DNA of 64,000 nucleotides, from the NCBI GenBank assembly GCA_026874595.1, contig CM049311.1, forward strand, positions 61,074,453-61,138,452, in the 5' to 3' direction. Under the pieces are notes generated by a model, which worked only from the letters and a program-made list of their open reading frames with translations, was not told the DNA's origin and made no database searches. The position numbers were made by a program, and so were the translations under genes. Below are positions 11,938-60,452 of the stretch, piece by piece. The DNA comes from Sipunculus nudus (Eukaryota; Annelida; Sipuncula; Golfingiida; Sipunculidae). Position 1 is the stretch's first letter; every line of letters begins with the position of its first letter.

Positions 11938-12800
11938 TAGTATCCCCAGAAATTAACCCCCCCCCCCTTTAGAATAGGTCCCCCATCTTCAGCAACAATT
12001 AATATCAGACCACTCTCTTAGAAAAGGTCACTCTCAAAGAAAAGGTCATGACCCCATTTTCAATATACATCATCCCCTAACCCATGACTATGTATATGCA
12101 TAATATGGGGCACGAAAACAAGTAAAAGAATAACAGGTGGCGCTACCAGTTTCCAGTACATGACAACACTATCCAAGATCTCCGGTCAAGCTGATTTTGG
12201 ACCAATCCATGCATCCCTTATTGAGATAATTATGATTTTGTGTTATTTTCATCATATATGGTAATATTCAAGGTCAAGGCCACTCTCATAGGAAAGGTTG
12301 TGACCCCAATTTATATATACATCATCCCATAACCCATGTCTATGTATATGCATAATATGAAAAAAATATGTCCATTAGTTTTTGACTTAAAATGCTCACA
12401 GTACTGTTAAGTGGCGATGATGGGGGTATTAAATGGCACAAAAACAAGTAAAAGAATAACAGGTGGCGCCACCTGTTTCCGGTACATGACAATATTATCC
12501 AAGATCTTCGATCAAGTTGATTTTTGGACCAATCCATGCAAGATTTCTTGAGATATTTAAGAATTTGTGTGATTTACCCCAAAATTGGACCTAGTCAAGG
12601 TCAAGGACACTCTCCTAGTAAAGGTTATGACCTCATTTCAATAGGCGTCCTCCTCTCACCAATATCTATACATATAACAAGTATGGTAAAGATCTGTGAA
12701 ATATTTTTTGAGTTATCGTGCCAACAAAATTTATATGCGGAGGCGGGGGGACTGGCATGAAAACAAAGTAAATCCCGACTTTGTCTGGGGATACAATAAT
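11938..12800 (+). mobile_element. HINE-like element, GTATCCC family, copy 2
   Basis: GTATCCCC (11,940-11,947) and a run of C (11,958-11,967) open it, and tcccgactttgtctggggat near 12,774-12,792 closes it, as in the 59,311 copy. Two internal units each hold 'ataacaggtggcgc(c/t)acc' (12,132 and 12,459), the second with the full 16-base palindrome CAGGTGGCGCCACCTG. Its presence far left shows the family is interspersed and not local. Confidence 0.77.
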
Positions 12801-15800
12801 CAATAATTAAAACACCAGAAAAGTCCAAACAGTGAGCTTAATTGTAAACAAATGGGCCACAATCTCATATCAGAAACTGAGAGAGAACTAAATTTTGGGT
12901 TTACATATGCATAGCTGTGGTTTTTAGTTATATTTCTGTTTTTTTTCTGACAGTTGGTCCTGTGACATTTTCTACTGTCACATCAAATCCTGGTATTTGC
13001 ATTTGGTGACATTTTATCCTGACATCAGCCTCATCCCATAAACTGTCTGGCCAGTACCTCATTTACCTTGAATATATTCACTCTGTCTGGTCCACTGAAA
13101 TGCAAATCTGTGGACTTATCTTCATGTGACTCAGAGAGCTTGTACATCATGTACACTAGAGCTGTCATCACCCTGTCAGTCAGGATAAAATACAACCACT
13201 GACACTTTATAAAGTCTCACATTTTGACTTAATGTTAAATTTCATGAGCAATATAGTCATCTCCATTATAACTTCCGTGTACATATATTATGGGTCACAA
13301 GTCTGTACCCATATAGTGGAATTAAACCTGAACTATAGACTCTGGATGGTACCTGATGTTCAGACTCCTGACTCTATGTTCAGCCTGAGACATTGCAATA
13401 AATATTATATGAAAATATTAAAAATTTACTTGCAGTAAAGTCATTAAAAAATATATACTGTTATACCTGAGAAGGATGGTAATAGAGCATAATACTTTAG
13501 GATACACTGGTGAATTAACATGAATTGTGTTTGTTTTTTTTTTAAATTTATTTTTTTGTTAATTTTTCACTTCAAACCCTTATCACAAATAGCCACATAT
13601 TTCAAGATAAGGGTCAGGAAGATGAGCACTTTGTATGCGTGTGAGAGGACAGGTCATGTATCTCATACTTACAATGTATATTACTATAAATATTTTAGAA
13701 TAATAAGCAGATTGGTCTAAACTAATACTGACATACTCCAAGCTGTCAACCCTCACTAAAGGGAGCCACTAATGTTGTATTATGACAGACAGTGACACTG
13801 GTCCTGTCCTTAGATACAAAAGCACAGACTGACCAACTGCAACAGTTTACTGTGTCAATGTAAACTAATCAGGGCTTGAAACTGCCACCCATAAGGACAC
13901 CCAACTGCTCCAACAGATAGAGACCAGGCTGACCAAGTCAAGCATCTTAAATTCTAATTGGCTGAAAGAGTTGATTCTTCCGTCTAATTGGCTGAGAGCA
14001 CAGGATTACATCAGAGTATTCAGTGGGGATGAACATGATCTAATACTAAGAGTGGACCACTGACCAGCTCTCTCCTCACATAACCACTTCTGTTTCTGGG
14101 GGGTTTATCTGCCATTTACTCCCTCCCCCTGAGAGGGTATATTTCACTCATGACCTTGTGAACCTGTATGACAGGACCTGGTCTAATTCATCTGTCTGTC
14201 ACCTAAGTAAAATTGCTGTGACTCTTGATCAGACAGACTGATAACAAAAATAAGTTGTACAATTCAGTCTGATACATCCTCACAAAGAAGTTGATTGATC
14301 CATTGTGCAAGGATCTTCATCTGATTGGTTGATGAAACAATACATCTATCTAAGACAAGCAGCAGTTCACACTCAACCAAACCTTTTTACAGAAGTACCT
14401 ACAAGACATAATGATTATTATGTAATCTAATTTCACACACCTAACCTAGACATGTGCCACACATGTACATAGCTGATTCAGTTTTTTTTAATGGTTGAAA
14501 AATACTACACAAAATCCATGTTTTTATAGACTGTCAACTGCTCTACTTTGGTAATTTTATATAATATCTGATCTTTTATATATAATGCTTCACTCATACA
14601 TACAGGTGAATTGCAGACAAACACAGGTTACACAGATAATCATTTGTGTGAAAAGACACTCAAACACACATGCTTTGCTAATAGGGTTATCCATACACAC
14701 CTACATACCTATACATATATTCACAATACACACCCACACATAACTAAGCAAACCAGGGACTGGTACAGGTATCCTTAACACTAATACATGTACTAGTTGG
14801 AACCCAGATCTCGATGGAACCCAATTCTACAACTGCAACACAGTAGGAGTATGCACAAGAAAGACTTTACATGCTTCATCTAATTAACCATACTGGTCAG
14901 TTTTAACATGTATATATCCATGTGGGCATATAATGATCTATATGAATATACACTCAGTCTTGACATTTCATCTGTCTCCCATCATATATAACACCATGCA
15001 GAATTAATCAATTTAAAAACAATTTTTATGGGTAATATATAGACACAGGGACTGGGTATTGTTTTCATATACTTTTGTTCAGAAGGAGCCCTTGTCATGC
15101 AAACAGCAAGGTCAACAACACAAGGATGAATGTTTTTCTTGTGTGGGGCTAGGACAGCTTTAAGTCTAAAAAACTGGGCATCTCTATAATTGTAATGGTC
15201 AACATCTTGTATTTATTACTAAACTATGTTCAGCTATCAATAATTAGCCGAATAATTCTAATAAACCCATACTACAGCAAACACAAAATATGACACTATT
15301 ATATCTTACCACAATTAAAATATAATGAACTGTAGTCATTATTTTTTATGGACGCCCTTAAGAAGAAACAATATTTGTTTCATATCATTGAATTCTCTGT
15401 ATGTTCCATTATTATACATAGGTATCACAGGATGTTTAAGGATGTGGGGGCAAAATAAAATAAAAACCAAATTTATTGTGAAAAGGCACATATGACATCT
15501 GCCTATGGGAATCCATCACACATATGTAATTATCATCATTGACAAACTCTTGATTTAGTCAGTAACATAATTATCCCTCCAGGGATGACTTCTAATCCAT
15601 GAATATTCCAGTAAAATACATCCTAGGGGTAAACTGTGCCTGACTAGCTGGATCTTGAATTCAAAATTCAAGTCAGGTAGCATCTGTTATTAGAACTGAC
15701 AAAAGGGGTATGACTGGTAATAAGCTGTGGTTCTGAATCACGCAGGTGAAATTAGCATACCTACATGCCATCACAGCCTGTGTATGTACACCCCTAAGGG

Positions 15801-16599
15801 AGACAAGAGGTTTTTAATTGGTAGGTCTTACACTGCTTCAGCTAGCCGCCAGACCGAACAATTTTAAAAACACTGTATAGAGAACCAAAGTCAAAGTCGG
15901 TCTCCATCACAACATGCAACACAAGACAGGTTTCCGTTGAGAATGATGCGTTAATACCACTTAAAAATGTTCCCTCTGGGCATGCCCCACTTCAGTGACA
16001 TATTTTGTATATCTACTTATAATTCTCACGCCAAGGGCGAGCATAGATTTGAAGATGGAAACAATGCCTAATGATAGCTTTTGACACTAATGATAAATAG
16101 CAGTAACGATCATATTGCCTTTGGAAGTCCTTATTACAGTGTACTGTGCCTCGGAGGTCTCCTCTCATGCCGGCACATCAACAAGTCAATATCTGCACAT
16201 AAATATATCAATACTTATATCAAGTGTGTCTAAATACCATCTGCTGTCAGCCATTCATATAACTCATAATAAAGCCAGCCACAAAGGAAACGGCCCTAGG
16301 GAAGGTTACATTACAGTACTATACCTGTGTAGATTAGATACACAGGTTACCTGTAGAGGGTCACATAAAGGTGGAGGTTACCTGTTACATCAATGTAAAG
16401 TGGTCTCTGACATGTTTGTACTGTCCCAGGGCACAGCCCAGCCCGATAACCCCAAAGTATCTGTCTGGAACATGGAGTCATAACAAGTCTAATCCCTACT
16501 CTCCATATTATCTCTTTCAACTTTCATCTCTGGACATGAGAAATATTGTATGTTCTGCCACACAATATATCAAGGCAAGGTGAAGAAAGAAGGACAAAA
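12801..16599. other. No gene recognised; contains duplicated CCAAT-type boxes and a CpG-containing patch
   Basis: Two copies of tctaattggctgaaag/gagag lie at 13,953 and 13,982 (inverted CCAAT cores). At 15,830-16,330 the sequence is CpG-containing and non-repetitive. The 122-codon frame at 16,115-16,483 has no recognisable domain and no splice or composition support. Confidence 0.45.
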
Positions 16600-17859: not shown

Positions 17860-17861
<2 letters not shown>

Positions 17862-26608: not shown

Positions 26609-28110
26609 ACTATAAAATGGGTAGTCAACAAGTGACTACAGGTTTCTGCCAAATCACAGAGGCATGGATAAATAAGGCAATGAATGCTCCTGACATGACA
26701 TGACTCCATTTGTTCTCTGCCAATTAAACTCCTCATATATGTGCAATTTTCACCAAAAACAGATCTACAGAAGGACACAAGATGAAATTGATTGTTGGTG
26801 GCCTAAGCAGTCTTGTGTGCATGATAAACCATTCCAAGATGTATGCAATTTTCAGGTGAATACATCAAACCACTCCTGAGAAAAAGGCAATATATTCTAC
26901 AAAAGCAAAAGGGTAGGTAGCGCCACCTGTCTGGTCTATGATGGATCAACCCTATGTGAAAACAATTGTAGGTGGTTCCACCAGGCTTGTGTACAAGTTG
27001 GGAGGTATCCAAAATCTGGGGACATGTGAAATTTCAGGCTGATACATTGAACTAGTCCTGTGATATATGCATAAAGGTATTCTACAAATATGTGATTGCA
27101 GGTGGTGCAACTAGTCTCATTAATAAGAAATCTACCCAAGACAGATGAACATGCAAACCTTCAAGCAAAGACACCAAACCACTACTGTGAAAGACTGCAT
27201 CAATGTATTCTACAAAAAAATTGGCAGGTTGTGTCACCTGTCTGGTCTACAAAAAAAAAATCTATCCAAGGTTGATAAACATGCAAAATTTCAGGCTGAT
27301 ACATCCAGCCACTCCTGATAAATGAGCAATTTTCATCCAAAGCAAACTCACAGATGGATGTCATGTGAAGACCATTGCAGAAGGCCCCACCAGTCTTTAC
27401 TATAAGAAGAAGGTATCTAAGTTTAATGGAAATGCACAATTTCGGGGCAATAGGGCAAACTACTCCCGAGAAAAGGGCATCAATATATTCTACGAACAAG
27501 GGGAAGTAGGTGGTACACCTGTCTGTCCTATGAGAAAAACTCTCCAAGATGGATGGACATGCTAAATTTCAGACCAATACATTGAATCACTCCTGAGATA
27601 TGAGTGATTTTTCACCCCAGTCAAACACATGGATGGATGCCACACAAATATGACTACAGATTGCACCACCAGTCTTAATTACAAGATGGAGATATCCAAG
27701 ATCTATGGACAAGCACAATTTCAGCCCAATACATTGAACCAATCACTCAGTCCAACAGATGGCAAATGCATTGATGGACACCATGTAAAAATGCTTGCAG
27801 CTGGCTCCACCGGTCTAGAGTACCAGATGGAGGAATCAAAGATCTGTAGACATACACAATTTCAGCCCAATACAATGAACCACTCATTGGATATGGGCTC
27901 TTATCACTAAGACACCCAGAATCATACAGCACAAATAGGGTTGCAAATGGCACCACCAGCCATATGTTAGGCACCAGTTCACATGTGACTCAATAATTAT
28001 GCTGGGTTTCGGAAAGATTGGTCAAAAGGCCTCAAGGAGTTCTTTGGAAATGAACGTGGTGGAGGCGGAGCCCCCGTAAAAACATGGTATCCTCAAATCT
28101 CGTATACAAT
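26609..28110 (+). mobile_element. Degenerate copy of the GTATCCGCC family
   Basis: The hairpin GTAGTCAacaagTGACTAC (26,621-26,639) matches the start of the 44,145 element. The 3' part (ccagttcacatgtgactcaa, ggtggaggcggagcc, then gtatcctc...gtatacaat at 28,087-28,110) matches the end of that element. In between are about ten worn sub-units with ggtagcgccacctgtctgg, ggtggttccaccag and similar. The open frames on both strands here are by-products of these repeats. Confidence 0.72.
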
Positions 28111-29344
28111 GGGCAGATTTAATGGGTAGCTCCATAATCAGGATAGTGTGCTGCCCTCTAGTTGGCAACAAGTAAACAAAGCTGTGTTTTATTTCAATGA
28201 TATTCAGACTAACATACCAACATGCCAAGTCTTGTTAATATGCCAGAAATACAATATAAATGGCCAACTTAGGGCCTGCTACAGCCTTTATGGGGTCTGG
28301 GAGCACACTTATGAGTTAAACCCTCCCCAGTTAAGTGTGCAATTTATGTTAACATTTGTGGTTAGCTTGTTATATACTTTGTAACATTTTACTGTGCACC
28401 TCCCAAACAAGGGGTTGGTTTTCATGGCAGATTCCTGAACCACCTTTGAAAGGGGGATTCTGACAGGCTGGCTGGACCAACTCCCATTTGCCAGGGATAG
28501 CTTAGTTTTTTTTTTTTTTTGCTTCTCTGTGATGTCACAATATATAATTTTAGACCTGTGCTGACCAAGATACTTTTTTTATGAATGATCTGAGACATGC
28601 CACACTGAGCATGATGCCAGAAGTCCATAACATGTCATTTGACCAGCGACACCTTGCTGTTCTATTCTAAATTAACTGTGTCAGCGCCCAGCCTTTGTGT
28701 TACTGTTTTTGTGAAAAGATGTACTTGTCAAACCTTCCTTAAACAAGGTCAAAACTAAAGGTCAACAGATGGTGGAAGATTTCCTGACACGAGTCATTTA
28801 TATTGCACCTATAACATAAAACCTGCAAAACTGTTTTAGGTGTCTGTTTGAAACACACACACACACACAGGTGTAAATGACACTAGTACAATACATATGT
28901 TACTGATATTGTTCCATAATATTATTTTATTAGCCTGAGGGTGGCAATATCCCCATGAGGTCCATAGGGCAAAGTGAAGATACTACTGCCAGGAAGCCAA
29001 TAGGAAGGAAATACCCAACAAGCAGGTTCATGATATTTTTGTTTGTTAAACAACAAACACACATTATCAACACAACCAACCATGTACAGTCACTCTATTT
29101 TAACAAAGTAATTAGATAAAACACTTTAATAGCATGCATGTATGGTAATTTCATACATTAAGGGTCCTACTTTGTTGTCAATTTCATTCCAGGGTGGTTT
29201 GTCACAGAGGACAGTGATGCCACACAGCATGTGATTCTTGCCGATTTCATTTTGGGGCATTGCGTCACTGATATGAGCCTCCCAATATTAAATAAGCGAG
29301 ATCTGTGTCTGGGTGATAACACATGTGGCCAGTTAATAAAATAA
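28111..29344. other. Downstream flank of the last firm exon; no further exon seen
   Basis: This should be either 3' untranslated sequence and flank or the start of a long intron. It has a T-run at 28,506-28,520, a (CA)n tract, and one TTTATT (AATAAA on the gene strand) near 28,186. The open minus frame at 29,167-29,439 overlaps the exon in another frame and is a shadow. Confidence 0.5.
28852..28869. repeat. (CA)n microsatellite
   Basis: Nine CA units. Confidence 0.9.
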
Positions 29345-30582: not shown

Positions 30583-32380
30583 AACAAGGGACCTATGGGT
30601 CACTGTGCTCAGCTGACGTTAACCTTGAAGGTAAAAATCTAAAATAATATCAAATGGAGATAAAGTGTAAGAGGAAGAGGTAATAAAGGCCATGGTTGGT
30701 TTATATGATTGGTTTGTATTGATGAGCAAGAAATTGTTGCAAAAAATATTTTGTGACCTGACCATGTGTTTCCTAATGTTGAAACTAAAGCATGTGAGCA
30801 GTTTGTGAACAAATGATCTGTACTATTACCATGATCATTAGTTGGTTTTTCGATTAACTGTTGACATTTCAGTCATTTACACATTTGTTCAATGGAATCT
30901 ATTTTTTTGTATAATATATATTATTAAATATATATGTATTTTTTTATGAAATGTATACATTTGAAATATAGCTAATTAACAACATAAAACAGGGCAAACA
31001 AAGCCTGATCTCAAATTCTGCTGAGGCAGGAAAATAATGAACAAATGTTTGTATTAAATCCTCATTTTTTTATCACATCAATTATTTTCTAATTTAAGTT
31101 TATATTTCTATACATTTCCAATTTAACATATATATCTGAATATAAAAGTTGATCCATAATTCTCAATTGCATCATCATAAATCTCAATCTTGCCAGATAA
31201 CACCACATCATGCATACAAATGTTTATTTATTTTTTACCACAAAAATATATCTTTTAAATCTGCAAAACAATAAATATCTAAAAATAATACTTGATTTAG
31301 ATTTCACAATTTTTAATTATGTCTTTATTTATCCATAATGTGCTTCATATTTTATAATAATTTAAGCATACTGATGGGTTCAATAATATTTGTTAAAATC
31401 ATTTAAAAGAAAATTGATTTCTTTAAAAATGCTACATTACACAACATTGCATCTTCTGCATTACACCTTGAATTATTTGGGTTTGCAGGGGGGGGGGGGG
31501 GTTTGATTGGGGTGGTGATATGAGAATAACTGTACACCTGTCACAGCAGGGGATCTCCCCCAGTGACTGTAACAAATTAGAAACCCTGGCATAGCTGACT
31601 TCCAGTGACCTGGAATGGGACCCTGCATCTGTAATCAAAGCAAGTGACTACAGAAAAAAAATCAATAACTAGCTTAATTTTCAAGCTTTTATTTTCAAAT
31701 TTCAGATTTAGACAAACTAAATATTTATGTTTACATGCTGTGAAAATTAAATCAATGGTGCTTACAGGAAAAAAACGTGCCATGGTCAAAGTTGGGCAAA
31801 ATTTAAGGTGCTGATTTTTTTTTTATGCTAATAACTTAAAAAATTTACAAAATTCAGATCTAATTTTGGGTAAACAATTGAATCTTAATTAAACATAGTT
31901 ATATACTTGAGAAAATAGACTCTAGTTTCAAAATTTTTCATGTTAAGTGAGTTATTATTTTTCCTGATTTTTTACAAAGTCCATTATGTCTGGGCCCATA
32001 ACTTAAAGAATTTATACTTTACAGACTTAATTTCTGGCATGTACATAGGAACTATATAGAGGAATATTTATGGTAAATATGAAGAAAACCAGATGAGTGG
32101 TTTTGATATTAGGCAGTCCTGAAGTGTGAAAATAGGATTTTAATAAAAATTGAGGTTTTTCCTTAATTTCTCAAAGGAATGAAGTCGCAAAGACCCAGTT
32201 TTCGGCTTGGTAGGAGATCTTGGGGACATCTAACATTATGCTGAATTTTGGATTCCTAGGTTTTACGGTTTCAAAACGTGCTTCATCTACGGACGGACGG
32301 ACGGATGGACGGACAGACGGACGGACGACGGACAATGGACCACGACTATAGCTCAGATGACTTATAGTCAGCTGAGCTAA
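30583..32380 (+). mobile_element. HINE-like element, family 2, copy A
   Basis: It starts aacaagggacctatgggtca then ctcagctgac, and ends with a GACGGACGG tract (32,291-32,330) and the hairpin AGCTCAGATGACT-tat-AGTCAGCTGAGCT (32,350-32,378). The interior is not in short tandem units; it contains a G-tract at 31,489-31,502 and AT-rich sequence. Two more copies of the interior are at 47,273 and 49,080. It fills most of the intron between the exons for fingers 7 and 8. Confidence 0.82.
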
Positions 32381-41959: not shown

Positions 41960-43168
41960 TATATGAAAATATTGCCAAATTTCAAAGGGCACCCTTTTGT
42001 GGAACAGACTATAAGAACTCTTATCTTATGTCAACATGACATCTCTAACATCCTGGTGAAGAAGCCTCAACTCAAGCAACCCCTCTCGGATGAATTATTA
42101 GACCCACTAGCTGTGTGTCAGGCAAGAACGCAACAGTCTTCCAAACGATGGTATTGAAATAATGCGTGATCTAAATCTAGCAGAAAATCTAGCTCCCAAT
42201 AAAAGCGCAAATATTAAAACACGCCTAACAAAACCACTTCCACAGTATATAAAGATCATTTTTAAGAGCATTATTTCAACTAAAACAATATGCTAAATAA
42301 AACATTATCCCTACAATTTTGTTGTTGACTATAAGATAACCAATTTTTATAATATAATTGACTGTTAAAAGCGGTTGCAACGACAAGATACACTGCAACC
42401 TATGATTCAAGACATACATATCCCGGACATTTTATTTTTGTAATATATGAAACAAACTGGTCATTTTTCAAGCAGTGTCTGTTGCACCACATCAACACTC
42501 TTGATAAAAGAATTTAAATACAGTCTGATAACCTGAGTAAGGAAACTGCTAAGAAGAAAATCTAACAGGATGTTTTACAAGAACTGATATGTCCAAGTAA
42601 CACTAATGATACATACAAAACTAAACTTGAAAAATGTTAGCGATTATCAAGGTGGTCTACTTAAAACCAGCTATTCTCCAACCTTTTCTACAGAATTTGT
42701 GAATTATGGCTTACTTTGCATATATATTAAGGAATTCCAGGTAATTCCTGTTAAGAAAAGTTCATATGAGGAATCTGTGACAGACATATGAGCTTGTTTA
42801 TCCACCAGCTCTTAGTAAACAGAGCAATGTGAAAAACAAACAAAAAATACATGTAACCTGAAGTGGTCGGTTGCATACTGCAGAAGCTGAAGGGTCACCA
42901 GTTGCAAAACGAAATTTGAACAGGTCTGGCTTGTCTGATTTGCCATCAGATGTCCTTGTTAAAAGTCTCAGGACTATTTAGGCAGGCTCCCAGCCCCATG
43001 TTATAAACACAGGGATATAAACAGTCTGGTGGAAGAAGAATTAGGGTTTTCTGGCCTATTTTATATTAAGGGTTCAAGGGATTATCTATAGTTGATAGAC
43101 TTATGATAGTGTAACAGTCCCCTTAAAAGACTTCAACATGAAAACAAACTACACTACATGTCACTAAC
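41960..43168. other. Intron part with an unassigned coding-like stretch
   Basis: The high-coordinate end of the same intron. At 42,858-42,960 the minus strand is open and coding-like, reading TSDGKSDKPDLFKFRFATGD and on to VCNRPLQ at a CTTCAG|gttaca donor in phase 0, but no acceptor gives the phase 0 entry needed between the flanking finger exons. The rest shows nothing. Confidence 0.4.
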
Positions 43169-43344
43169 CTTGAAGTGTGCCAGCAAGTCATCCTTGTCAA
43201 AGGACACAAACATACAGCATTTACACTTGTGGATGTCCTCGGTGTGGGTGGCGATGTGGTCCTGGTACTGCTGCTGGTAAAACCCCTGGAAGTCACACTT
43301 TGGACACTTGAGTTTGGTCAGTTCCTGCTCTGTTGCCTTCAGAC
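43169..43344 (-). CDS. Exon: zinc finger 1 and most of finger 2
   Basis: After acceptor cctgtgacag the peptide reads GLKATEQELTKLKCPKCDFQ and on to the first complete C2H2 finger, C-x2-C-x12-H-x3-H (CPKC ... HIATH). A seven-residue linker TEDIHKC leads to the second finger, whose cysteines (CKCC) and first histidine (LLAHFK) are on this exon; its second histidine comes from the next exon, giving C-x2-C-x12-H-x4-H. Length is 176 bases, phase 1 in and phase 0 out; the donor is TTCAAG|gttagt. The finger geometry across the junction confirms that no exon is missed between here and 34,519, although the intron is 8.6 kb. Confidence 0.92.
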
Positions 43345-43924
43345 CTGTCACAGGAACAATCAATGCACATAAATACTTAATCACTAAAGATCAATACACA
43401 GCAGTCTGAAACCGGCCTTTTTTATCTTCCTGTAAAATACAACTCTACATAAGCTTGAAAATAAGTAAGTGTACACTGCAATATTATTAGTATCTTGAAA
43501 AGACCATAAAACATAAATGAATAGGAATATGCAAACTTCAAGGCAAATATGTTGTACTTCTGCTGATTTATAAACATTTTACTTCTTACCTATGGTTGTA
43601 ACTTGCCGCTCTGTTACATTTTAATACCAGCTGTGGAAGGTAGCAATATTTTTAGGTCATTCTGTCATATTTATATATAATATTATAATTAATCCATCTG
43701 GATTTCAGGTTTTTTTTATGCATGGGTAAATAATCAAGAAAAAGAGCAAGGCTGTTAGGTTCTATTTTCACTGAGATTTCTTAGATTTCCCTTCCAGGAA
43801 ATAACATGGATAAAACCTGGTAACTGTGGTTTCAAAGTCAACCTGAACCACAAGGGTAAATCTAATCCCTGGATCATGGTCTCTTAGGGGTGAGAGAATG
43901 TGGCAAAGTTTCACCAACCCTTAC

Positions 43925-44041
43925 CTATTTTGATGGGTTCTTTCTTGGGGACCAGCAGAGGGACCAGGTTCTGTGGGAGCTGGATGATGGCTGTTGGAGG
44001 GAGGTCCTTGTTCTTTTTCTCATCATGACCCTCCAGGACTT
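43925..44041 (-). CDS. Exon: hydrophobic/proline linker before the finger block
   Basis: Acceptor tattttgcag and donor AAATAG|gtaagg bound a 117-base exon, phase 1 at both ends. In the phase set by the flanking exons it reads EVLEGHDEKKNKDLPPTAII followed by QLPQNLVPLLVPKKEPIKI. The last part, VPKKEPIKI, contains a KxEP match to a SUMOylation site (hydrophobic-Lys-x-Glu) at PIKI/KKEP, which is only a weak motif match. The longer open frame on the same strand is a different frame with no support from splicing. Confidence 0.78.
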   Translation of the reverse strand, partial: KSWRVMMRKRTRTSLQQPSSSSHRTWSLCWSPRKNPSK

Positions 44042-44144
44042 CTGCAAAATAATAATCACATTCACTAATAGTTTAGTTTCTGACATTCTGTTTTTGACTG
44101 AGTCATCAATCATCAAATAGTTAACTTAATAAATAAATCATATA

Positions 44145-45315
44145 ACTAGAATACGGGTAGTCGACAAGCGACTACATGTATCCGCCTAAATCAGAGTGGA
44201 ACGGGTGAAGTGAGGCATGGATTGAGTGGCAAGGGGAAATAGAGTGAAGTGTTGCATATTAGCATGGATGTCTGCAGCCAAATTGTGTATGTAGGTTGCG
44301 CCACCTACCACAAAATCCAGAAAGCCATCCAAGTTGTATACATATGCAAAATTTAAGGCAGATAAGTCAAACCACTACATGTACATGAGTGATTTTAGCC
44401 CGTGGCAGACAAACAGATGGACACTGTTCAAAAATGGTTGTAGGTGGCGCCACCAGTTTTGCGTATGATAAAGAGCTATGTGAGAACTATACACATGCAA
44501 AACTTTGGCCCAATCGGTCAAACGGTTCCCAAGATATAAGGTTGGATGTCTGCTGCATAAACTAGAATGCAGGTGGCGCCACCTGTCATAAAATCAAGAG
44601 AGCTGTCGGGGATGTATTAACCTGCAAAATTTTAGGCGGATATGTCACACCACTGTCGAGATATGAGTGATTTTATCCCTTGGCAGACAAACAGACGGGA
44701 GCTGTGCAAAAATGGCTGCAGGTGGCGCCACCAGTTTTGCGTATGATCAAAGCTATGTGAGATCTATACACATGCAAAATTTTGGCCCAATCGGTCAAAC
44801 GGTTCCCGAGATATGAGCTTGGATGTCTGCAGCGTAAACGTGAAAGGTGGCGCCACCTGTCATAAAATCAGAAAAGCTATCCAGGATGTATATGCATGCC
44901 GAATTTCAGGTGAATTAGTGAAATCACTGCAGAGATATGAGTGATTTTAACCCAAGGCAGACGAACAGATGGACACTGTCCAAACATGGTTGCAGGTGGC
45001 GCCACCATTTTTTGTGTATGTTATAAAGCTCTCCAAGGGCTACATTTGTGAAAAAAAATTTCCTGATCGGTCAAACGGTTCCCGAGATATGTGGGTTTAT
45101 GTGTGGAAACGACGCACAAACGGACGCAGAGCGCAGAGGAAAGGTCAGAGGTCAAAACGAAATCAGGGCCCAGCAGTTCACATGTGACCTGAACATAATC
45201 CCGGGTTTTGTAAAATTCCGCCCAGCGGTTACGGAGGAGTTCTCTGGACACCTTCACGGCGGCGGTGGGCTGAAAACATAGTATCCGCAAAACTCTGTTT
45301 TGGCGGATACAATAA
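44145..45315 (+). mobile_element. HINE-like element, GTATCCGCC family
   Basis: It starts actagaatacgg, with a small hairpin GTAGTCG-acaag-CGACTAC (44,157-44,175) and GTATCCGCC (44,178-44,186); the 3' end has GTATCCGC...GGCGGATAC (45,281-45,310). Between them are five exact GGTGGCGCCACC sites (44,443; 44,572; 44,721; 44,846; 44,995) in an alternating pair of sub-units, about 275 bases per pair. One sub-unit reads 'ccagttttgcgtatgat' after the palindrome, the other 'cctgtcataaaatca'. Confidence 0.83.
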
Positions 45316-45541
45316 TGTACATACTTTGTGCAGGTATGGTGAAAATGCAGAAAATTAATCCTCACACAACACTGTAAAAGTGAAAATCAAGAAAATTTAG
45401 CCTTGCCAATATAAAGCAAACCACAGTATTTTATATAAACTGTCTGTGTCTCACTATAGACATATTTTTCAACATTTAATGCACAGACCAGAACTGTCTG
45501 AGATCTCAATTATGACCTCAGACCAAAGAATAGTCATTTAC

Positions 45542-45715
45542 CATCTTCCTCAATGTTATCTTCTTCCTGCTGTTCTGTTGACTGGTCCCCATCTTCTAAA
45601 ACAGCAGCTCCACCTTCTGGCTCTTGACCTGTATCACTCTCCTCATGATTACTCGTAGATTGTAATGACAGTGAAGTGTCCTCACCAAGCATGTCTGAAG
45701 GCAGCATCAACATAC
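45542..45715 (-). CDS. Exon: acidic Met/Ser/Glu-rich linker
   Basis: The 174-base exon (phase 1 in, phase 1 out) has acceptor cttgtttcag and donor AAGATG|gtaaat. The peptide begins SMLMLPSDMLGEDTSLSLQS and ends EQQEEDNIEEDG, strongly acidic in its second half. The opening SMLMLPSDML is a hydrophobic-acidic patch of the kind found in short transactivation motifs; I infer this only from pattern. It has no Cys/His pairs. It lies between two ACGG-bearing repeat elements in the surrounding introns. Confidence 0.82.
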
Positions 45716-45949
45716 CTGAAACAAGTGTTGCCATGAATCAAACTTATAACTAATAAAATCTTCATCTGCTTTATTTCACAATGTACAATCAGATTTCAAC
45801 ATTCAAAATTACAGAATAATTATAATATCCAGAGCTATTTATTACCTATAATGAACTGATCGTTGTAAATTTTTTAGACTTCTTAACAATGCAATTTTTA
45901 GTCACATAAACTTTTTGAAATACAATTAAGATGGATATAATAATGTAAA

Positions 45950-46990
45950 ACTAGAATATCAGCAGAAGCTGACAAAAGCCCTCAGCCAAAAGAACAGTGT
46001 TTAGAGGTGGTAACAGTAAAAAGTACTAAATATCTGTTCTCACATGGATGTATATCTGTACATGTCTCAGTTATAAATTTAAAATGGAGAGGTACGTACC
46101 ATGACTCATAACAATCCATCAAATGGTTCCTGAAAATAAGCTTCTAAGTTTTATTATATTGTAAGCTCTGTGACCTTGAAAAGCAGGTCAAGGTCACCAA
46201 TCTTCGAACTTGACCGAGATTTTGTTGATATGCATCTTCACCAAAGAAATCAAATTCCTATTGTGAATCCTTTTAGAGATATCCTGCTCACAAGGCCAAA
46301 ATTGAAAAATCCAAGAAAAATTCATTAAAAATCAGAAATTGCAGGTGGCGCCCCCAAACTTGTGCAGCAGTTACAGACCATCAGTCCCTATGATCATAGT
46401 AAGTATTGTAAATATCCACACAATGTTTCCTGAGAAATAAGCTTCTAAATGTTTTTTCTATAATCAGCTCTGTGATCTTGAAAAGCAGGTCAAGGTCACC
46501 CATCTTCGAACTTGACCGAGATTTTGTCAATATACATCTTCACCAAAAAAATAAAATTCCTACGGTGAAACCTTTTCCAGATATCCCGCTCACAAGCCCA
46601 CAGTTGAAAAATCATATAAAAAAATTCATTAAAAATCAGAAATTGTAGGTGGCGCCACCAAACTTGTTTAGCAGGTACAGATTATCAGTCCCAATAATCA
46701 TAGTAAGTTTTGTGAAAATCCACCAAATGGTTCTTGAGTAATAGGCATCTAAGTGTTTTTCTATAATCAGCTCTAAAATGTAGAAAAATGGGTCAAGGTC
46801 ACCCATCTTCGAACTTGACCGAGATTTTGTCGATATACATCTTTACCGAGGAAATAAAATTCTGACGGTGAATCCTTTTCAAGATATCCCGCTCACAAGG
46901 TAAAAGTTAACGGACGGACGGACGGAACGACGGACGGACGGACAGCTTGGGTGACGACAATAGCCCATCAGCCTAAGGGCTGAGGGCTAA
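45950..46990 (+). mobile_element. HINE-like element, AGCCCTCAGCC family
   Basis: The 5' part holds AGCCCTCAGCC (45,977-45,987), which is repeated in inverted form as the 3' hairpin AGCCCATCAGCC-taag-GGCTGAGGGCT (46,962-46,988). Internal units of about 304 bases carry gcaggtggcgcc (46,341) and gtaggtggcgccacc (46,645). An ACGG tract (46,912-46,943) precedes the hairpin. It starts actagaa, as does the element at 44,145. Confidence 0.8.
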
Positions 46991-46998
46991 AAATCATT

Positions 46999-47266
46999 AA
47001 ACATGGGTCATGACACTCAGCTGACTTAAACAGTCTGTAATGTTTAAATGTAAGGGTGCTAAAAACATAAAAACAGACATTACTCGCAAAAAATAGGTCA
47101 TAGAGACCTTAGTTTTGGTATGAACGGAAAATTACAAAGGACCTACCAAGATTTTAAGTAAAGAGTTTCAAGGTCAAGAGGTTACGATTTGTGCCTTGTT
47201 AACAACTGGCGACGGACAAAGGGTGATCACTATAGCTCAGATGACCTAAGGACAGCTGAGCTAAAC
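46999..47266 (+). mobile_element. Short complete element of the same end type (about 268 bases)
   Basis: The 5' acatgggtcatgacactcag and 3' hairpin agctcagatgacctaaggac...gagct (47,234-47,262) are the ends used by the 36,782 and 30,583 elements, but the interior is only about 200 bases and has 'gatttgtgccttgttaacaa' as in the 337-base units. It lies exactly where the missing 5' end of the next family-2 copy should be. Confidence 0.7.
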
Positions 47267-47272: not shown

Positions 47273-48962
47273 ATCAAATGGAGATAAAGTCTGAGAAGAA
47301 AAGGTAATATAGGCCATGGTTTATTGATTTGATTGGAGAAATTGTTGCAAATAATATTTTGTGTTCTGACCATATGTTTCCTAATGTTGAAACTGAAGCA
47401 TGTGAGTAGTTTGTTAATATAAGATCTCTGCTATTACCATGATCATTAAACAGCTTTTTGATGAGCTGTTGACAGTTCAGCAGTTTACATATTTGTCCCA
47501 TTAGATCCTTTTTTTTATTAAACCAAATATTATTTCTATTTAATAAAATACAGTTGCCATAACTTTCCCACTCCACAGGTGGAAGGACTTAATGGGGGGG
47601 GGGGGGGATAATGAGGGGAGTTAACACCTATGTACCTCTGTATATATTTTCTTTATTTAATAAATTTTATGTAGTTGCAATAAAACCATTGTTCCCAGTA
47701 CTCAAGTGGAAGGACTCAATGGCGGGGGGGGGGGGGGGGGGGGGGCAGAAATGTTAGGACTTAGAACACAATTCTTCTGTGGCAGGTAAATAATGAATGA
47801 ATGTTGTCATTAGATCCTAATGTTTTTTATTACATCAATTTTTTTTCAAGTTTATGAATTTTACTAAACATTAATAGAATAACAGATATATCTGAATATA
47901 TAAGTTGATTCACAATTCTAAATAGCAACAAAATTTATAGCAAATTTAGTCATGTAACTTCACATTATGCACACAGATGTGTTTATTTTTTTTAATAAAA
48001 TATTTTTTTAAATTTGCAAAACAATAAACATCTGAAAATAACTTGATTCAGGATTCACAACTCTGAATTGAATCTTTATTTATCCATGAGTTGGCTCATA
48101 TATTATTAAATCATGCCAACTGATGGGTTTTATTATATTTTGATTCACTTAAATTATTTAAAAGGAAATCAATTTCTTTAAAAATGCTACATTAGTCATT
48201 ACCACAACATGGCATCTTCTGGGTTACTCCTTGAATTACTACAAGAAAAGTTTTGTACATTGGAGGGTAAACAGCTTTACAATTAAAAAAATACAATTCA
48301 AACAATAACAGTTATTACAATACACTCTGTTGAGGGGGGGGGGGCAAGGGGGTTAGGTGGTGGTGTGGTGACATGAGAATAACCGTACACCAGTGACAGC
48401 AGGGGTGCTTGACAAGGCAGGGCTGTAGTGACCAGAAGTGGGCAGCTAGGAACTTGACAATGCAAATACAACAAAGCCTCTGAAAACAATTGATAACTAG
48501 CCCAAATTTTCAGCTTTTAAAATATTAAATCCTTATGTGTACCTGCTATGAAAATTAAATCTAATTTACTTCCTGATTTTTTACAAAGTGCTGAATGTTT
48601 GGGCCCATAACTTTAATTAATAATGATGACCTGACCTAATTTCTAACATGTACATAGGAACTATATAAAGGAATATTTAAGGATATGAAGAAAAAGAAAT
48701 GAGTGATTGTGATATTAGGCAGTCCTGAAGTGTGAAATAGGTTTTTTAATGGAAATTTTGGGTTTTCCTTAATTTCTCAAAGAAACAAGAGTCACAGTGA
48801 CCCAGTTTTTGGTTTGATAGGAGATCTTGAGGACATCTAACAGAATTTTGGATTCATAGGTCTAACAGTTTCAAAACGTGCAAGTCTTACGGATGGACAG
48901 AGAGATGGATAGACAGACAATGGACCATAACTATAACTCAGATGACTAAGAGTCATCAAGTT
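47273..48962 (+). mobile_element. HINE-like element, family 2, copy B (5' end missing)
   Basis: From caaatggagataaagt onward it parallels copy A (30,652 onward) through the G-tract region and the 'gtcctgaagtgtgaaa' block to a degraded hairpin (ctcagatgactaagagtcat). It has extra G-tracts at 47,595-47,608 and 47,722-47,746. The ACGG tract is reduced to ggatggacagagagatgg. Confidence 0.75.
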
Positions 48963-49079: not shown

Positions 49080-50957
49080 AACAAGGGACCCATGGGTCAC
49101 GGCACTTAGCTGAAGTTTGAAATTTTTGCAAATGCAAAATTTTCTATTGTAATTGAATATGAGCAGCTAAGAGGAAAGGGGCCCTCCTACTTGGTTATAG
49201 TAAAGTTCTAAATATACGATTGCAAACTAATACTCTGACAAGACTGTCATGAAGAAAACAGTAAAAGTTTTGAGATACTGTGATGCATATGAAAATTTAC
49301 AGATGGTCAGGCAAGTGGACAGAATGGACTAATACCTTTATTTCACTTTCAAGGGAATAATGCATTTAAGTTAATATATAAGCCTATTTTTTTTTAGCAT
49401 ATCCACTTTTTCCATTAAAATATTTTATCTGAATCATTTTTTTTTATTTACTAGTTTTATAAATTTTTTATAAAAAAACTGAAAATACAAGTTAAAATAT
49501 CAGAATTGTTGCAATCATTATATATCCAGGGTGTAGCTCATATTGGGTCATATTATGCATACACATATATTTTATTATTTTTAAATCACAAATGTTTAAA
49601 CAGAATTTACAAGAAAATAATGCCACAACATAGAATCTACAAGATTATTCCTTGAATCACTATTAAAAAGTTTTGCACATTGGAGTTTTCAGTACATGCT
49701 TAATTTTTTCACAGAAATAATATAAAAGATTCAGTAAATTTGATAAAATAAAACATCTTTTCAAACAAAGTACACACTGTTGGTTGAATGAGGGACAAAC
49801 AATATCATTGTGCTAACTACTATCTCAGCTTTAACTTATTACTGGAATTGATAGTCAATTTCACACATGGTAAAGTTTTTACTCTTCTGAAGTAAGGAAT
49901 TACTTATCTAATGAACATCAATGCACACTTTCATAGCAATACACCACTTAGTGGACACAATTAAATGTGCACTTTTATCATTGTAACCCTGGTGGTACTA
50001 TACAAAATTTAAAATGTAGCATAGCCTATTATATGAATGAATCAAATACAGAAATAATAACATATTAACAATGATCATCTTGTTTATGCAACATCTGTGG
50101 GGGGGGGGGGGGGGTTAATGCAGGGCAGAGGGGAAGCCTGTTGGTAGTGGCCAAGCTGAGCCAAGGCAAGCTACCTGGGGTGGGTTACATAATGCAAGTG
50201 AAGGCTGTACTACCAGGTGGGCTAGATGTAAACAACACTTGACATGGTGTATGAAAACTTGAATAAAAGCTACCCTTTTCAATCAATTCCTTTGAAATTT
50301 CAGGTTTTAAAAGATTAAATCCTTATGTATATATGCTGTGAAAATTAAATCAACAGTGCTTACAGGGAAAAAACATGCCACTGCCAAAGTTGGACTAAAT
50401 TTAAGGTATTGATTTTTTATTTATGCTATTAACTTGAAAAATTTGCAAAATTCAGATCTCAATTTGGGTAAACAACTGAATCTTGATTAAATAAAGTTAT
50501 ATTCCTTAAAAAAAAGTCTCTAGCTTTAGCAATTCTCATGTGAGGTAAGTAAATATATTTCCTGATTTTCAAAAGTTGCATGATATTTTGGCCCATAACT
50601 TCAAAATAAGACCCAACACTGACCTAATTTTTTGTATGTTCATAGAAAATGTATGGCACAATATGAATACTAAATATGATCAAAAACAGATCAGTGGTTT
50701 CGATATTAGGCAGCCTTGAAGTGTAACAATGGCTTTTTTTATGGAAAACAGAGGTTTCCTTAATATCTTGAAGGAATGAAGTCCAATTGACCCAATTTTT
50801 GGTATGATAGGAGATTTTGGGGATATCTAATGGTATGCAAAATTTTGGAATTGTAGGTCCAACGGTTTTAAATCATGCCCTGTTAACAGACGGCCGGACA
50901 TACGTCGGACAAAGGACCACGACTATAGCTCAGATGACTTATAGTCAGCTGAGCTAA
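49080..50957 (+). mobile_element. HINE-like element, family 2, copy C
   Basis: The 5' end acaagggacccatgggtcac contains the palindrome GACCCATGGGTC; the 3' end has a short cggccggacatacgtcggac remnant of the microsatellite and an intact hairpin (50,927-50,955). The interior aligns by eye with copies A and B, including 'ttaggcagccttgaagtgta'. A run of G lies at 50,098-50,114. It ends about 68 bases from the donor side of the exon at 51,025. Confidence 0.78.
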
Positions 50958-51024
50958 AAAGTGATGGCCCAAAGAATGATTTCTCCTTCCTCTCTCATTC
51001 AAACACTGGCTGCTTGAGACTTAC

Positions 51025-51669: not shown

Positions 51670-52110
51670 ACACATATATCACTTCTGAAATGCTGGTTTG
51701 GATGTACATAACACAAAATGATTGTGGGTTGAGCCTACGAGCTATGTGCACAGATGCATGAACCCCAAAAACAATTGTAGGTGGCTCCACAAGTCTTGTA
51801 TACAAAAAAACTATCTGAGATGTACTGACATGCATGTTTTTAGGCTGATATGTCAATTCACTCCTGAGAAATAAGCAGGAGCATACACTGTGCAAAAAAT
51901 TATTATAGGTAGTGCCACTAGTGTTATACATTGAAACTATCCAGATATATATATATATATATGCCCAATCTCAGACTGATATATCAAATCCCTCCTGAGA
52001 AATAAGCAGGGACATACATTGTGCAAAATAATTGAAGGTGGCGCCACTAGTCTTGTGTAAGAAAAAGCCATCAAAGATGCCTGGACATGCCAAAATTTCA
52101 GGCAGATTCA
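51670..52110 (+). repeat. Fragment of the same sub-unit family
   Basis: Three worn sub-units: gtaggtggctccacaagtct (51,777), 'aggtagtgccactagtgtta' (51,907) and gaaggtggcgccactagtct (52,033), with the intervening 'aggctgatatgtcaa...ctcctgagaaataagcag' phrase also seen in the 26,609 element. I do not see clear ends, so this is a fragment. It includes a short (TA)n run near 51,946. Confidence 0.65.
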
Positions 52111-52730
52111 TCAATCTTCTCCTGAGTCACGTGCAAAGGGCTTCACAAGCTCAGCTGAGGCAGGCAGTGGCTACAAGTGAACCAGAAAGAATAACCAGCT
52201 GTCGCTATTGCACTGAGTGAACTCTTGGACTACACTTGGCTGTACTGATTGAACTCTTGACATTTTGCCTTATCTGATACAGTTGGAAGTCTGCCAAACC
52301 TTTAAATAGAAACAGATTGAAATTTGGCCTGTTGCCAAATCTGAAATAGTTGGCAGTATGCCAAGCTATTTACCGACACAGGCACAATCTTGGCCTGCAG
52401 GTTAATCTGTATATACATACTGAAATACTATGCCTACAATGCTTATTTTAAGATGACATATTCATTAGAATCTTTTTTAATTAAATGTTTTCCATATTAA
52501 CTGATGCTTATTGAAAGCTAAATCAGAATACAGATATATTTTATTCATGAATTTATCTTATACAAAAGTTGGGTATAGACATCAATTATTTATGTTGCCT
52601 GTACAGCAATGCTTATATACCCACAGGGCTTAGACTGTTAATACAGGAAATTGACTAGCTTTGTTAAACAAAGAATCTGACAGTCCAAACATGTGGTCCA
52701 AAGACAAAGGCAAAATATTACATGGTTTAA

Positions 52731-52996: not shown

Positions 52997-55766
52997 TTAA
53001 GTGAACAAGGCAACTTAATAGTCTTATTTTTTGCAAGATACAGAATTGAAACAACAATTTTGCAGAAAGGACTTATGTCTCTCCTCAGGCTGATATGGGC
53101 TTACTTGGCCAAAAGACCAACTTCAGCTTTCCATGACTCAAAAATCAAAATCTATTTTTAAACAAATGAGAGATCTCTACAGCAGGATAATGTTTGCAAA
53201 GAATTAAGCCATTGAGTTGACAGTTTCATCATAAAACATTTCTAATGTATTGGCTGAATAAAGGCTATAAAATTAAAAGTTATTTGTCCTTAAAAAAACA
53301 GTTTGATGTAGGTGGTACAACATAAACATCAATTGAGTCATTTGACCAACACTTGCACAAAACTTTGTGATTTTTCTTGCACCTGCCATTTCTGAGATTG
53401 TAATGTTAGTATGCTTACTTGGCCAAATGACTAATTCAAATTCCTGTATCTTGGTCCAAATTCATTGATCCCAAACCATTTGAACTTACTTCAGAGAGCT
53501 CATTTCTGGAATCATTTCTGTGATATATTGAACAATCTGGCTGAAAGATTTCGGAAAAGATTTTCAAAGATTTCCTAGCTTTCTCCCTGGAAAATGTAGG
53601 TCAATGCAGGTTGCGCCACAAAAAGCTCAATCCAACAACATTTCACATGACTGATTTTTTGCATTCAATTTGCTGATGCTAGCTCCTGAGAAATTATAGG
53701 TTAATGTACAAATTATCCAATTACAAAATAGGTCAATGCAGGTGGCGCTACCAATACCTCAATTTAAACAAGTGACCCATGGGTCATGACGCTCAGCTGA
53801 CTGGGAAGAGATTTGCCAAAGGAAATTTTATCATCTGAATGGTAGTATATACCCATTCATTTGAAGAATCAAACAGATTAACCAACAGGCCAAGATTGTG
53901 ACTGTATTTATATATCTCAAAAATAGAGAAAAATGCACAAACTTTAAAAAAAAAATACAGGTGGTTCCACCAGTCTGCAGAAACTAAAAAAAACACTTAA
54001 TGGTCAATATCCATGCAAAGAATCATGGTGAACTCTGCATTAGTTGTTCAGAAACTTCAGCTTTTGTATCAAATTGTCCATTATTCTGAGGGATGCTTCG
54101 GGGTCCTATAGCTTGAAGGTTATGGGTAACAGAGACCTAATTTCAAGTTTCCATGGAGACTTTTCATGGGTCTCCCAGTGTGTCAAGATTGAAGATTCTA
54201 GGTCCAGTTGTTATGATTGTGCCCTGTTAACAGATGTTCATATCTTTAAAGGTCTCAAAAAAAAAGAAAGAATTTGTAAAAAACCCAAACATATACAGGT
54301 GGTGCCACCAGTCTGCAGAAACTGATGAAACACTCCATGATCAATATTGATACAAACAATTATGGTGATTGCTGCATTAGTTGTTCAGATACTTCAGCTT
54401 TTGTATCAATTTTTCCATTATTCTGAGCTGTACTTTGGAGTGCCATAGCTCAAAGGATATGGGTAACAGAGACCTAATTTCAGGTTTCCACGTAGACTTA
54501 TCGTGGGTCTCCCTGTGTATCAAGTATGAAGATTTTAGGTCCAGTCGTTACAATTTGTACCCTGTTGACAGATAACTACATCCTTAAAGGTCTCAAAAAT
54601 AGAGAAAAAAATTTGAAAAAATACAGGTGGCATCACCAGTCTGCAGGAACTGATGGAACACCTCTTGATTAATATGTATGCCAAAAATCATGACCATCAG
54701 TTTTGTAGTTATTGAGATGTTGCAGTTTGTTTTTATCAAATTTTTCATTATTCTGGGGGGTAATTGGGAGCCCCACATCTCAAAGGATATGGGTAACAGA
54801 GACCTTATTTCAGGTTTCCATGGAGAATTTTCATAGGTCTCTCACTGTGTCAGTAATGAAGATTCTAGGTCCAGTCTTAACAATTTGTGCCCTGTTGACA
54901 GATGTTCACATTTTTAAAGGTCTCAAAAATAGCGAAAAACAATTCGTAAAAAATTGAAAAAATACAGGTGGCGCCACCAGTCTGCAGGAAGTGATGAAAC
55001 TTCTCATGATCAATATGTATGCAAAAAATAATGACCATCAGTGATGTAGTTAATGAGATATTGAAGTTTTTGTATGAAATTTTTTATTATTCTGGGGGGG
55101 TACTTTGGGGCCCCATAGCTTGAAGGATATGGGTAACAGAGACCTAATTTCTGGTTTCCATGGGGCTTTTCATAGGTCTCTCAGTGTGTCAAGAATTAAG
55201 ATTCTAGGTCCAGCAGTTACGATTTGTGCCAGGTTAACGGACAGACGGACGGACAGACGGACTGACAGACGGACAGATGGACAAAGAGTGATTGTTATAG
55301 CTCAGATGACTTACAGTCAGCTGAGCTAAAAATGACACATGTAACCGACATTTGCATAAAATTTGGTGACGGTAGCTTCAGCCAGATCTGACATTGTAAA
55401 TTTTTTAGTATATCTTTTTGGCCAAATGACTTAGTTCAGCTTCCGGAAACTCAGCCAAAATTAACCGAACTGGAACCATTGGAACAAACTTGAGAGAGAT
55501 TGTTTAAGAGATTATTTCTGTGAAATATTAAACAATTTGGCTGGTCAGTTAGGAGAAGAAAATTTTAAAATTTTTTTTAGCTTTTTCCCTATAAAATTCA
55601 AATGCAGATAGCAAAAAAAGTAGCAAACTCCCATGTTTGGCATAATGATTCTTCCATAAAATTTGGTGCTGCTAGCTTCACTGGTTTTTGAGACTGCATG
55701 GGTTAACGTACAGACGATGATGAGCGGATGCTGCGTACCATTGCATAAGCTCACAAGTTCACTAAA
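52997..55766 (+). mobile_element. Older repeat element interrupted by the 53,766-55,329 insertion
   Basis: Before the insertion there are diverged internal units with gcaggttgcgccac (53,610) and gcaggtggcgctacc (53,741), each followed by 'cacatgactgattttttgca'-like sequence. After the insertion the text resumes with atgacacatgtaaccgacat and 'aaatttggtgacggtagctt', the expected continuation of the interrupted unit. Outer limits are approximate; short inverted sequences (agtgaac at 53,000, gttcact near 55,756) may be its ends. Confidence 0.6.
53766..55329 (+). mobile_element. Second copy of the 337-base-unit element, four units
   Basis: It starts with the same aaacaagtgacccatgggtc 5' end as 36,782 and shares the first hundred bases almost base for base. 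Anchors at 53,971, 54,309, 54,647 and 54,978 mark four units. A GACGG/GACAG tract (55,238-55,278) and hairpin (55,299-55,327) close it. It interrupts another repeat: sequence left of 53,766 and right of 55,329 belongs to one different family. Length differs from the first copy only by unit number. Confidence 0.87.
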
Positions 55767-56873: not shown

Positions 56874-56930
56874 CTTTCAGAAACCTGGCTTTTTTCCTTT
56901 GTCTGTGACTTTTTCTGCGACCATCTGGCC
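56874..56930 (-). CDS. Micro-exon: basic patch, possible nuclear localisation signal
   Basis: This is a 57-base exon of 19 codons, too short to appear as an open reading frame by itself. The minus strand shows acceptor atattttcag and donor CTGAAAG|gtaagt, both close to consensus. Translated in the phase dictated by the neighbouring exons it reads GPDGRRKSHRQRKKARFLK, strongly basic with two Arg/Lys clusters spaced like a bipartite nuclear localisation signal. Phase 1 at both ends means inclusion or skipping keeps the frame. The nuclear signal reading is inference from composition; the splice sites and frame are directly visible. It lies between the exons for AT-hooks 1 and 2. Confidence 0.72.
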
Positions 56931-59280: not shown

Positions 59281-59310
59281 CTGTAGATAAAGTACAAAAT
59301 TATGATTAAA

Positions 59311-60452
59311 ACTAGACATTTCTTGGCCGCAGGTGCCAGAGTATCCCAAGACATAGTACGCCCCCCCCCCCCCCCCCCTTTAGGAATAGGCCCCCATTTT
59401 TAGCAGCATATACTGACACTTGGCAAGCAATTATTGTTTCTTCCATCTATCAATCCACAATCTTTTTAAAGATTTTGGTCCTGTGACCTTGACCTCATGA
59501 CCCCAAAATAAGTTGGAGTCTTGCTTTTTCAATGGGACATAAATAAGTCAAGTTTGAAATCAATAAAAGCAGGAATTATCATCCAGAAACTTATTTTTTG
59601 ACAGATAGCTCCTGTGGCCTTGACCTTTGACCTTGTGACCCCAAAATTGATATGGATCATCCACTATTGGCAAGTGAGCTATATATTCAAGATGGAAGAC
59701 CTGGGATGAAAGTTTGGCTTAAAATGCATCCACAGTATCTTTTAAGATGCAAGTCCAGTGACCTTGACCTTTGACCTCATGACCCTAAAACCTATAGGGT
59801 TCTTACTTTAGTAGTGGGCCATACATAAGTCACGTTTGAAATTCATATGGCTATCAACACTGGCGATATCATAAGAGGTGTGTGATTTTCACCAAATATG
59901 GACACATTAAAGGTCAAGGCCACTCTCATAGTAAAGGTCATGACCCAAATGTAAATTGACCTCATCCCATAACCCATCTCTCTACATGTGCATAATATGA
60001 AAGAAATCTGTTCATTAGTTTTTGACTTATAATGCTTACAGTACTGTCAAGTGGCAATTATGGGGGTATTAAAAGGCGTAAGTACAAGAAAAGGATGATA
60101 GGTGGCGCCACCAGTTTCCGGTATATCACAAGGCTATCCAAGATCTTTGGTCACCTTGATTTTTGGACCAGACCATGCAAGCTTACTTGAGATATTAAAG
60201 AATTTGTGTTATTTTCAGCAAAAAAATGGACCTATTCAAGGTCAAGGTCAGTCTCCTAGCATAGGTCATGACCCCATTTTAAATAGGCTTCGTCCCCTTA
60301 CCTATATCTATACAAATGTAAAGTTTGAAAAAGATCAGTGAAATATTTTTGGAGTTATCCTGCTCACAAGGTTTTTCTGCGGTGGCAGCGGCGGCCGCGA
60401 CGGGACAGTCGTGAAACCATAGTATCCCGACTTTGTCTGGGGATACAATTAT
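59311..60452 (+). mobile_element. HINE-like element, GTATCCC family, copy 1
   Basis: It begins actagacatttcttgg, then GTATCCC (59,341-59,347) and a run of C (59,362-59,378). The 3' end is AGTATCCC-gactttgtct-GGGGATACA (60,421-60,445). An exact GGTGGCGCCACC is at 60,101. The text contains several 'ccttgacctttgacctcatgac' type phrases. It starts only about 31 bases from the acceptor edge of exon 58,701-59,280. Confidence 0.78.

Follow-up and report, generated by a model that had tools for sequence, protein, structure and literature searches.

A 12-base palindrome conserved between families of HINE-type elements in Sipunculus nudus is a candidate protein-binding box

The tandem central repeats of HINE and pearl elements are thought to have seeded much of bivalve satellite DNA. 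In two studies, HINEs are laid out with subterminal repeats, tandem repeats, a microsatellite and a 3' palindrome (PMC7492417, PMC4067079). Here we analyzed a window of 64,000 nucleotides from Sipunculus nudus (contig C6, 61.07-61.14 Mb, of a 1.43 Gb eukaryotic assembly in which the first 17 contigs reach the size of chromosomes), in which a perfect 12-letter palindrome, GGTGGCGCCACC, recurs within elements that, judged by their sequence layout, are HINE/pearl-type elements, non-autonomous rolling-circle relatives of Helentrons that occur in bivalves and other invertebrates. The oyster element Cg_HINE (Crassostrea gigas) resembles them in its subterminal inverted repeats, its mostly 4-base microsatellite, its tandem central repeats and its 3' palindrome, and also in that its dissimilar monomer clusters (CL4 versus CL1/2/10/13) have two conserved segments in common (PMC7492417). 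However, its monomers are mostly 140-180 bp long, whereas the array periods here were 278-337 bp (Tandem Repeats Finder, TRF); its microsatellite precedes the array, whereas here it follows the array; and GGTGGCGCCACC is not named in the text of that paper. The Drosophila DINE-1 and mite HINEs, as presented in the accessible part of PMC4067079, likewise have subterminal repeats, optional tandem repeats and microsatellite, a 3' palindrome and T-rich targets, but no comparable common internal palindrome is described there.

Precedents for conserved palindromes or paired conserved motifs are found in the DTC84, phBglII400 and BIV160/Cg170 repeats, of which DTC84 and phBglII400 appear close. According to PMC5139131, the DTC84 pearl of Donax trunculus and the phBglII400 satellite of Ruditapes philippinarum have a conserved palindrome near repeat junctions, 12 bp long in phBglII400, a likeness in length or position. 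Furthermore, the junctions of phBglII400 fall in the palindrome, whereas here the flanks are linked across it. The BIV160/Cg170 (HindIII) satellite family of bivalves is a precedent by description, and the bivalve label for the elements studied here rests on element type. The 12-mer GGTGGCGCCACC was not found in PubMed Central full text, and a single exact box common to at least six element families and more than 110,000 copies is novel as far as searched.

Thirteen exact copies of GGTGGCGCCACC had been listed in an earlier note on this DNA, and every one of those coordinates proved right; none arose in 100 dinucleotide shuffles of the window. When up to two mismatches were allowed, the window held 30 copies, compared to 0.47 expected in shuffles. 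The genome-wide count, which the note had proposed as a check, returned 111,757 exact copies, whereas a reversed control (the pattern read backwards, of equal composition) occurred 14 times, and the abundance of GGTGGCGCCACC is thus beyond chance. The copies are not independent, since a handful of repetitive elements, with their tandem units, supply most of them.

We compared 97 exact units from the window and from 40 sampled loci on contig C1, a sample concentrated at the start of C1, and these grouped into few flank clusters. Consensuses of six families, each built from copies with the exact palindrome, had 13 invariant consecutive bases, AGGTGGCGCCACC, while the remaining aligned unit was 32-56% identical. 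A second, weaker common box, TGAGATAT, lay about 85 bp downstream of AGGTGGCGCCACC, with an A/T-rich middle between the boxes. The base at position -1 was A in 96/97 exact copies, and that at -2 was C or T in 93/97. When units were instead picked solely by homology of their flanks, no 12-mer was commoner than the exact palindrome, and the majority base was unchanged at every position. A short core is therefore kept while its surroundings diverge, as had been proposed, and this conservation between families speaks for a functional site that element lineages have retained.

The carriers are short and non-coding, and the palindrome lies, as previously stated, within the internal unit, namely the tandem central repeat. 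The families told apart here are A to G, F being an old relative of C, and at least six families are present in the genome. The elements and units in the window are as follows:

11,933 to 12,801, plus strand: HINE family A copy 1, with subterminal inverted repeats GATATTAGTATCCCCAGA / TCTGGGGATACAATAATC (ends 11,933-11,950 / 12,784-12,801, 83% complementary) and two 326-bp central repeats; palindromes at 12,136 (one mismatch) and 12,462 (exact).
26,610 to 28,130 (ends approximate), plus strand: HINE family F, the old relative of family C (5' end GGGTAGTCAACAAGTGACTAC alike); worn palindromes in the central repeats at 26,916, 26,971 and 27,800.
31,678 to 32,380 (start approximate), plus strand: palindrome-free HINE that has (ACGG)n and a 3' end, TATAGTCAGCTGAGCTAAAA, resembling that of family B; related elements at about 48,480-48,960 and 50,276-50,960.
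36,786 to 41,006, plus strand: HINE family B copy 1, with 5' end ACAAGTGACCCATGGGTCATGACG, 3' end AGTCAGCTGAGCTAATAA, an ACGG-type microsatellite and an array of 337-bp tandem repeats (11.5 copies, TRF); exact palindromes at 37,960, 39,646, 40,320 and 40,657.
44,155 to 45,318, plus strand: HINE family C, with dimeric 278-bp repeats of two palindromes apiece; exact palindromes at 44,443, 44,572, 44,721, 44,846 and 44,995.
45,957 to 46,992, plus strand: HINE family D, with subterminal repeats AGCCCTCAGCC / GGCTGAGGGCT, 302-bp central repeats and (ACGG)n; palindromes at 46,344 (one mismatch) and 46,648 (exact).
51,720 to 52,130, plus strand: family G central repeats; worn palindromes at 51,780 and 52,037.
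53,300 to 53,768, plus strand: family E units, split by family B copy 2 and resuming after 55,334; worn palindromes at 53,609 and 53,741.
53,769 to 55,334, plus strand: HINE family B copy 2, nested within a family E unit; palindromes at 54,967 (exact) and at 53,960, 54,298 and 54,626 (worn).
59,860 to 60,450 (start approximate), plus strand: HINE family A copy 2, with end TCTGGGGATACAATTATG; exact palindrome at 60,101.

The earlier note had placed exact copies in five families; in the window they occur in four (A, B, C and D), and families E, F and G have worn versions only. Two of its five worn positions, 26,916 and 52,037, were correct, whereas 12,132, 51,777 and 53,744 had to be moved to 12,136, 51,780 and 53,741, and its list missed other worn copies, for example GGTTGCGCCACC at 38,634, 39,309, 39,983 and 44,294.

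The assignment of the carriers to HINEs follows from the match of their subterminal inverted repeats, tandem central repeats, ACGG microsatellite and 3' hairpin to the published HINE layout. Subterminal inverted repeats were recognized by reading in family B (GCTCAGCTGAC / GTCAGCTGAGC) and family C (TATCCGCC / GGCGGATA) as well as in family D, and a 3' palindrome or hairpin was likewise read in families B (AGCTCAGATGACTTACAGTCAGCTGAGCT) and C (TATCCGCAAAACTCTGTTTTGGCGGATA). The TRF arrays supply the tandem repeats, and ACGG arrays adjoin the family B, family D and palindrome-free elements. HINEs are further characterized by insertion into T-rich sites without target-site duplication; where family B copy 2 is inserted in family E, at 53,769, the surroundings are A/T-rich, but a few flanking E bases differ from the consensus.

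We consider it about an even chance that the palindrome is a box to which a protein binds, inherited from the ancestral HINE central repeat, and that it aids amplification of the element. The central repeats of at least six families have one layout, with the 13-base AGGTGGCGCCACC, the A/T-rich middle and TGAGATAT; most simply, these families would descend from a single ancestral monomer, all but the boxes of which has become unrecognizable. Selection or homogenization would have acted on a few spreading master copies, in which the box would help the element to multiply. Its most likely role would be that of a two-fold symmetric DNA site bound by a dimeric protein that takes part in rolling-circle copying or in the growth of arrays. 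The genomic copies, more than 110,000 in number, would then be passive by-products and not host regulatory sites. More specifically, but only tentatively, the box is a candidate iteron-like dimer-binding site through which arrays recruit a Helentron protein or a hijacked host replication protein; if true, this would explain both why the central repeats turn tandem and why only the boxes outlast the divergence of the families. One exact palindrome at this copy number in at least six families also offers a defined sequence for protein pull-down and mutation.

Several observations weigh against a binding box. The 13 invariant columns are inflated by the use of exact-palindrome copies for the consensuses. 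In addition, palindrome-free HINEs carry a family B-like 3' end: of the three window HINEs without the palindrome, those at 31.7 and 50.3 kb have this end and that at 48.5 kb has a worn version of it, and the box is therefore not obligatory for mobility. Finally, a search to about 1.5 kb around each of 30 Helitron Rep domains recovered no HINE ends. The palindrome itself, exact or with one mismatch, was likewise missing from these 30 stretches, for which the genome average would predict about 8, although the stretches are mostly coding and many represent copies of a single family. Thus, no autonomous Helentron with the box or with HINE ends was recovered near the Rep domains examined; the autonomous partner of the oyster HINEs is likewise unknown (PMC7492417). 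Genome-wide there were 143 matches to the Helitron Rep domain. In several of the Rep loci (L003-L030) the reading frame ran without interruption for over 2,200 codons, and identity between some of the loci was 99.7%; such near-identical copies suggest recent activity.

We also measured decay of the palindrome within families. For units found by their flanks, identity was 0.848 in the palindrome and 0.859 in the flanks in the window, and 0.893 and 0.882, respectively, in other regions. Flank identity was measured copy against copy and palindrome identity copy against consensus, and because the two measures differ these figures provide no evidence of extra protection of the palindrome. The two CpG positions accounted for 14/29 palindrome mismatches outside the window, decay thus being fastest at CpG. 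Genome-wide, among 8,216 family B units with an intact 18-base anchor, the palindrome was intact in 33.9% and the next 12-mer in 23.5%, a modest gap that subfamily differences in the control 12-mer may explain. The earlier note had named as a refuting outcome a core no more conserved than the rest of the unit; this outcome was obtained within families but not between them. Decay of the palindrome at much the same rate as the flanks indicates that conservation acts on spreading lineages and not through host use of each site. We conclude from these sequence comparisons that most inserted copies probably drift and that conservation sits at the level of the element lineages that spread.

The main rivals of the binding box are a role in junctions or template switching and common descent without function. 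Under the first, which we regard as possible but doubtful, the palindrome is a site of breakage, template switching or junction formation at which arrays grow, end or swap segments, and only units that have it amplify. Consistent with this, 13/16 junctions of phBglII400 lie within its 12-bp palindrome and the DTC84 palindrome is near a repeat junction, according to PMC5139131. Furthermore, ordinary and terminal units of family C are 90-93% identical up to the palindrome, 60-67% identical over the next ~60 bp, directly after it, and 93% identical beyond. However, left and right flank clusters were linked almost one to one, with zero exchange between families, the family B array, by reading, neither starts nor stops at the palindrome, and many tandem arrays of the genome lack it. 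A recombination seam that swaps units between families, as suggested in the earlier note, is not supported, given these linked flanks; what survives of it is a within-family possibility, with one case, the end units of the family C array, which switch at the right edge of the palindrome. The idea that the palindrome generally marks tandem arrays was rejected, given the many satellite arrays without it. Subtelomeric pieces (L076, L078, L083 and L086; 150 kb from chromosome ends) consisted largely of satellite arrays of 779, 731, 166 and 751 bp, and the palindrome was absent from all four of these sampled arrays.

Under the second rival, one central-repeat ancestor gave rise long ago to all the families, and the box is a chance remnant without function, kept with the aid of homogenization or GC-biased conversion in arrays. 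This would fit the recognizable layout common to the families, second box included, and the decay of single copies at the pace of their flanks. On the other hand, 13 adjacent unchanged bases beside flanks of 32-56% identity are hard to obtain without constraint, and the box contains CpG, the fastest-decaying site; we consider this explanation unlikely.

We find it very improbable that a host factor (a CTCF-like, E2F-like or E-box protein) binds the palindrome and that its copies serve as dispersed regulatory or insulator sites. The defining core of a CTCF site comprises 14 bases, CCASYAGRKGGCRS. The right part of this motif, YAGRKGGCRS, was present in 92/97 units, but the full core was found in 0/97 units on either strand, and a CTCF site was rejected on this basis. 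Individual copies showed no extra protection, the palindrome decaying like its flanks. The near-neutral decay of copies and the missing full CTCF core together make general host use, one of the functions proposed in the earlier note, unlikely, although the host may use a few copies. A structured RNA or ribozyme, considered since family B has CTGATGA, was rejected for want of an Rfam match (zero gathering-level matches in 86.5 kb, and none up to E = 1 in window positions 36,900-47,000).

We next turned to the orientation of the elements. The palindrome is symmetric, and the flanks give every element its direction. Genome-wide, the oriented 15-mer YAGGTGGCGCCACCA was balanced, with 32,636 forward and 32,700 reverse matches. 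Throughout the window and in the first 3.5 Mb of C1 (0-3.5 Mb), however, HINEs of different families lay on one strand over long blocks. Among the matches listed, C1 0-1.09 Mb held 43 elements forward and 0 reverse by the palindrome-flank marker and 47 forward and 0 reverse by the HINE 3' end TATAGTCAGCTGAGCTAAAA; the TATAGTCAGCTGAGCTAAAA ends on C1 formed 10 runs in 100 ends, compared to 35.3 +/- 3.4 expected. Block boundaries of the two markers broadly agreed, while a third marker gave one reverse element at 451,735, so that the C1 block is not wholly uniform. In later parts of C1, family B neighbors were on the same strand in 17/18 cases at 3-20 kb and in 9/16 at 20-50 kb. The usual block is thus gene-sized: strand-coherent blocks usually span about 20 kb, and two exceed 1 Mb. 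The family B sequence AGTCTGCAGGAACTGATG had 4,607 forward and 3,609 reverse matches genome-wide; one long family B satellite array perhaps accounts for the roughly 1,000 extra matches on one strand.

Replication polarity is known for IS200/IS605 and Tn7 (PMC5371812). For replication-fork polarity as the cause of the blocks, we had set the prediction beforehand that all left chromosome ends would be plus; among left ends with clear HINE units, C1, C3 and C10 were plus but C2 was minus, and this cause was disfavored. At other left ends the plus sign came from short ACGG-like strings, of which one or more lay in a non-HINE repeat. Because coherence usually extends for about 20 kb, genes fit better than replication; replication polarity is less well supported and could act in the two blocks above 1 Mb. 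The strand skew of unmasked sequence was uninformative, and the B-box 12-mer, intended as a non-HINE transposon control, occurred too seldom in the first 3 Mb of C1 to serve as one.

An antisense bias of intronic transposons is well known. For L1, part of the bias stems from insertion, with 39 antisense versus 17 sense (PMC5717806). In the window, HINEs at 31-56 kb sit antisense inside one assumed gene:

29,348 to 59,379, minus strand: likely exons of one assumed gene, with weak C2H2 zinc-finger matches in two exons and AT-hook-like RGRGRP motifs by reading.

HINEs were antisense at 6/6 loci with a readable gene strand (the window, L071, L088, L092, L095 and L096), which gives p = 0.03 (two-sided) in this small sample. 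On C2 an fn3 exon was plus and the HINEs minus; on C9, C13 and C4 kinase genes were plus and the HINEs minus; and on C1 a kinase gene was minus and the HINEs plus, the C1 and C2 cases having HINEs 1-5 kb from the exon and assumed membership of the same gene. The HINE bias is unusual for how complete it looks. If upheld by gene annotation, strand coherence and antisense placement would make target choice by Helentrons (insertion bias or selection, transcription or replication) testable from sequence alone. At the right end of the window, positions 63,537-63,998 on the plus strand contain a possible exon with a BED zinc finger (E = 0.0015, just under the Pfam cut-off).

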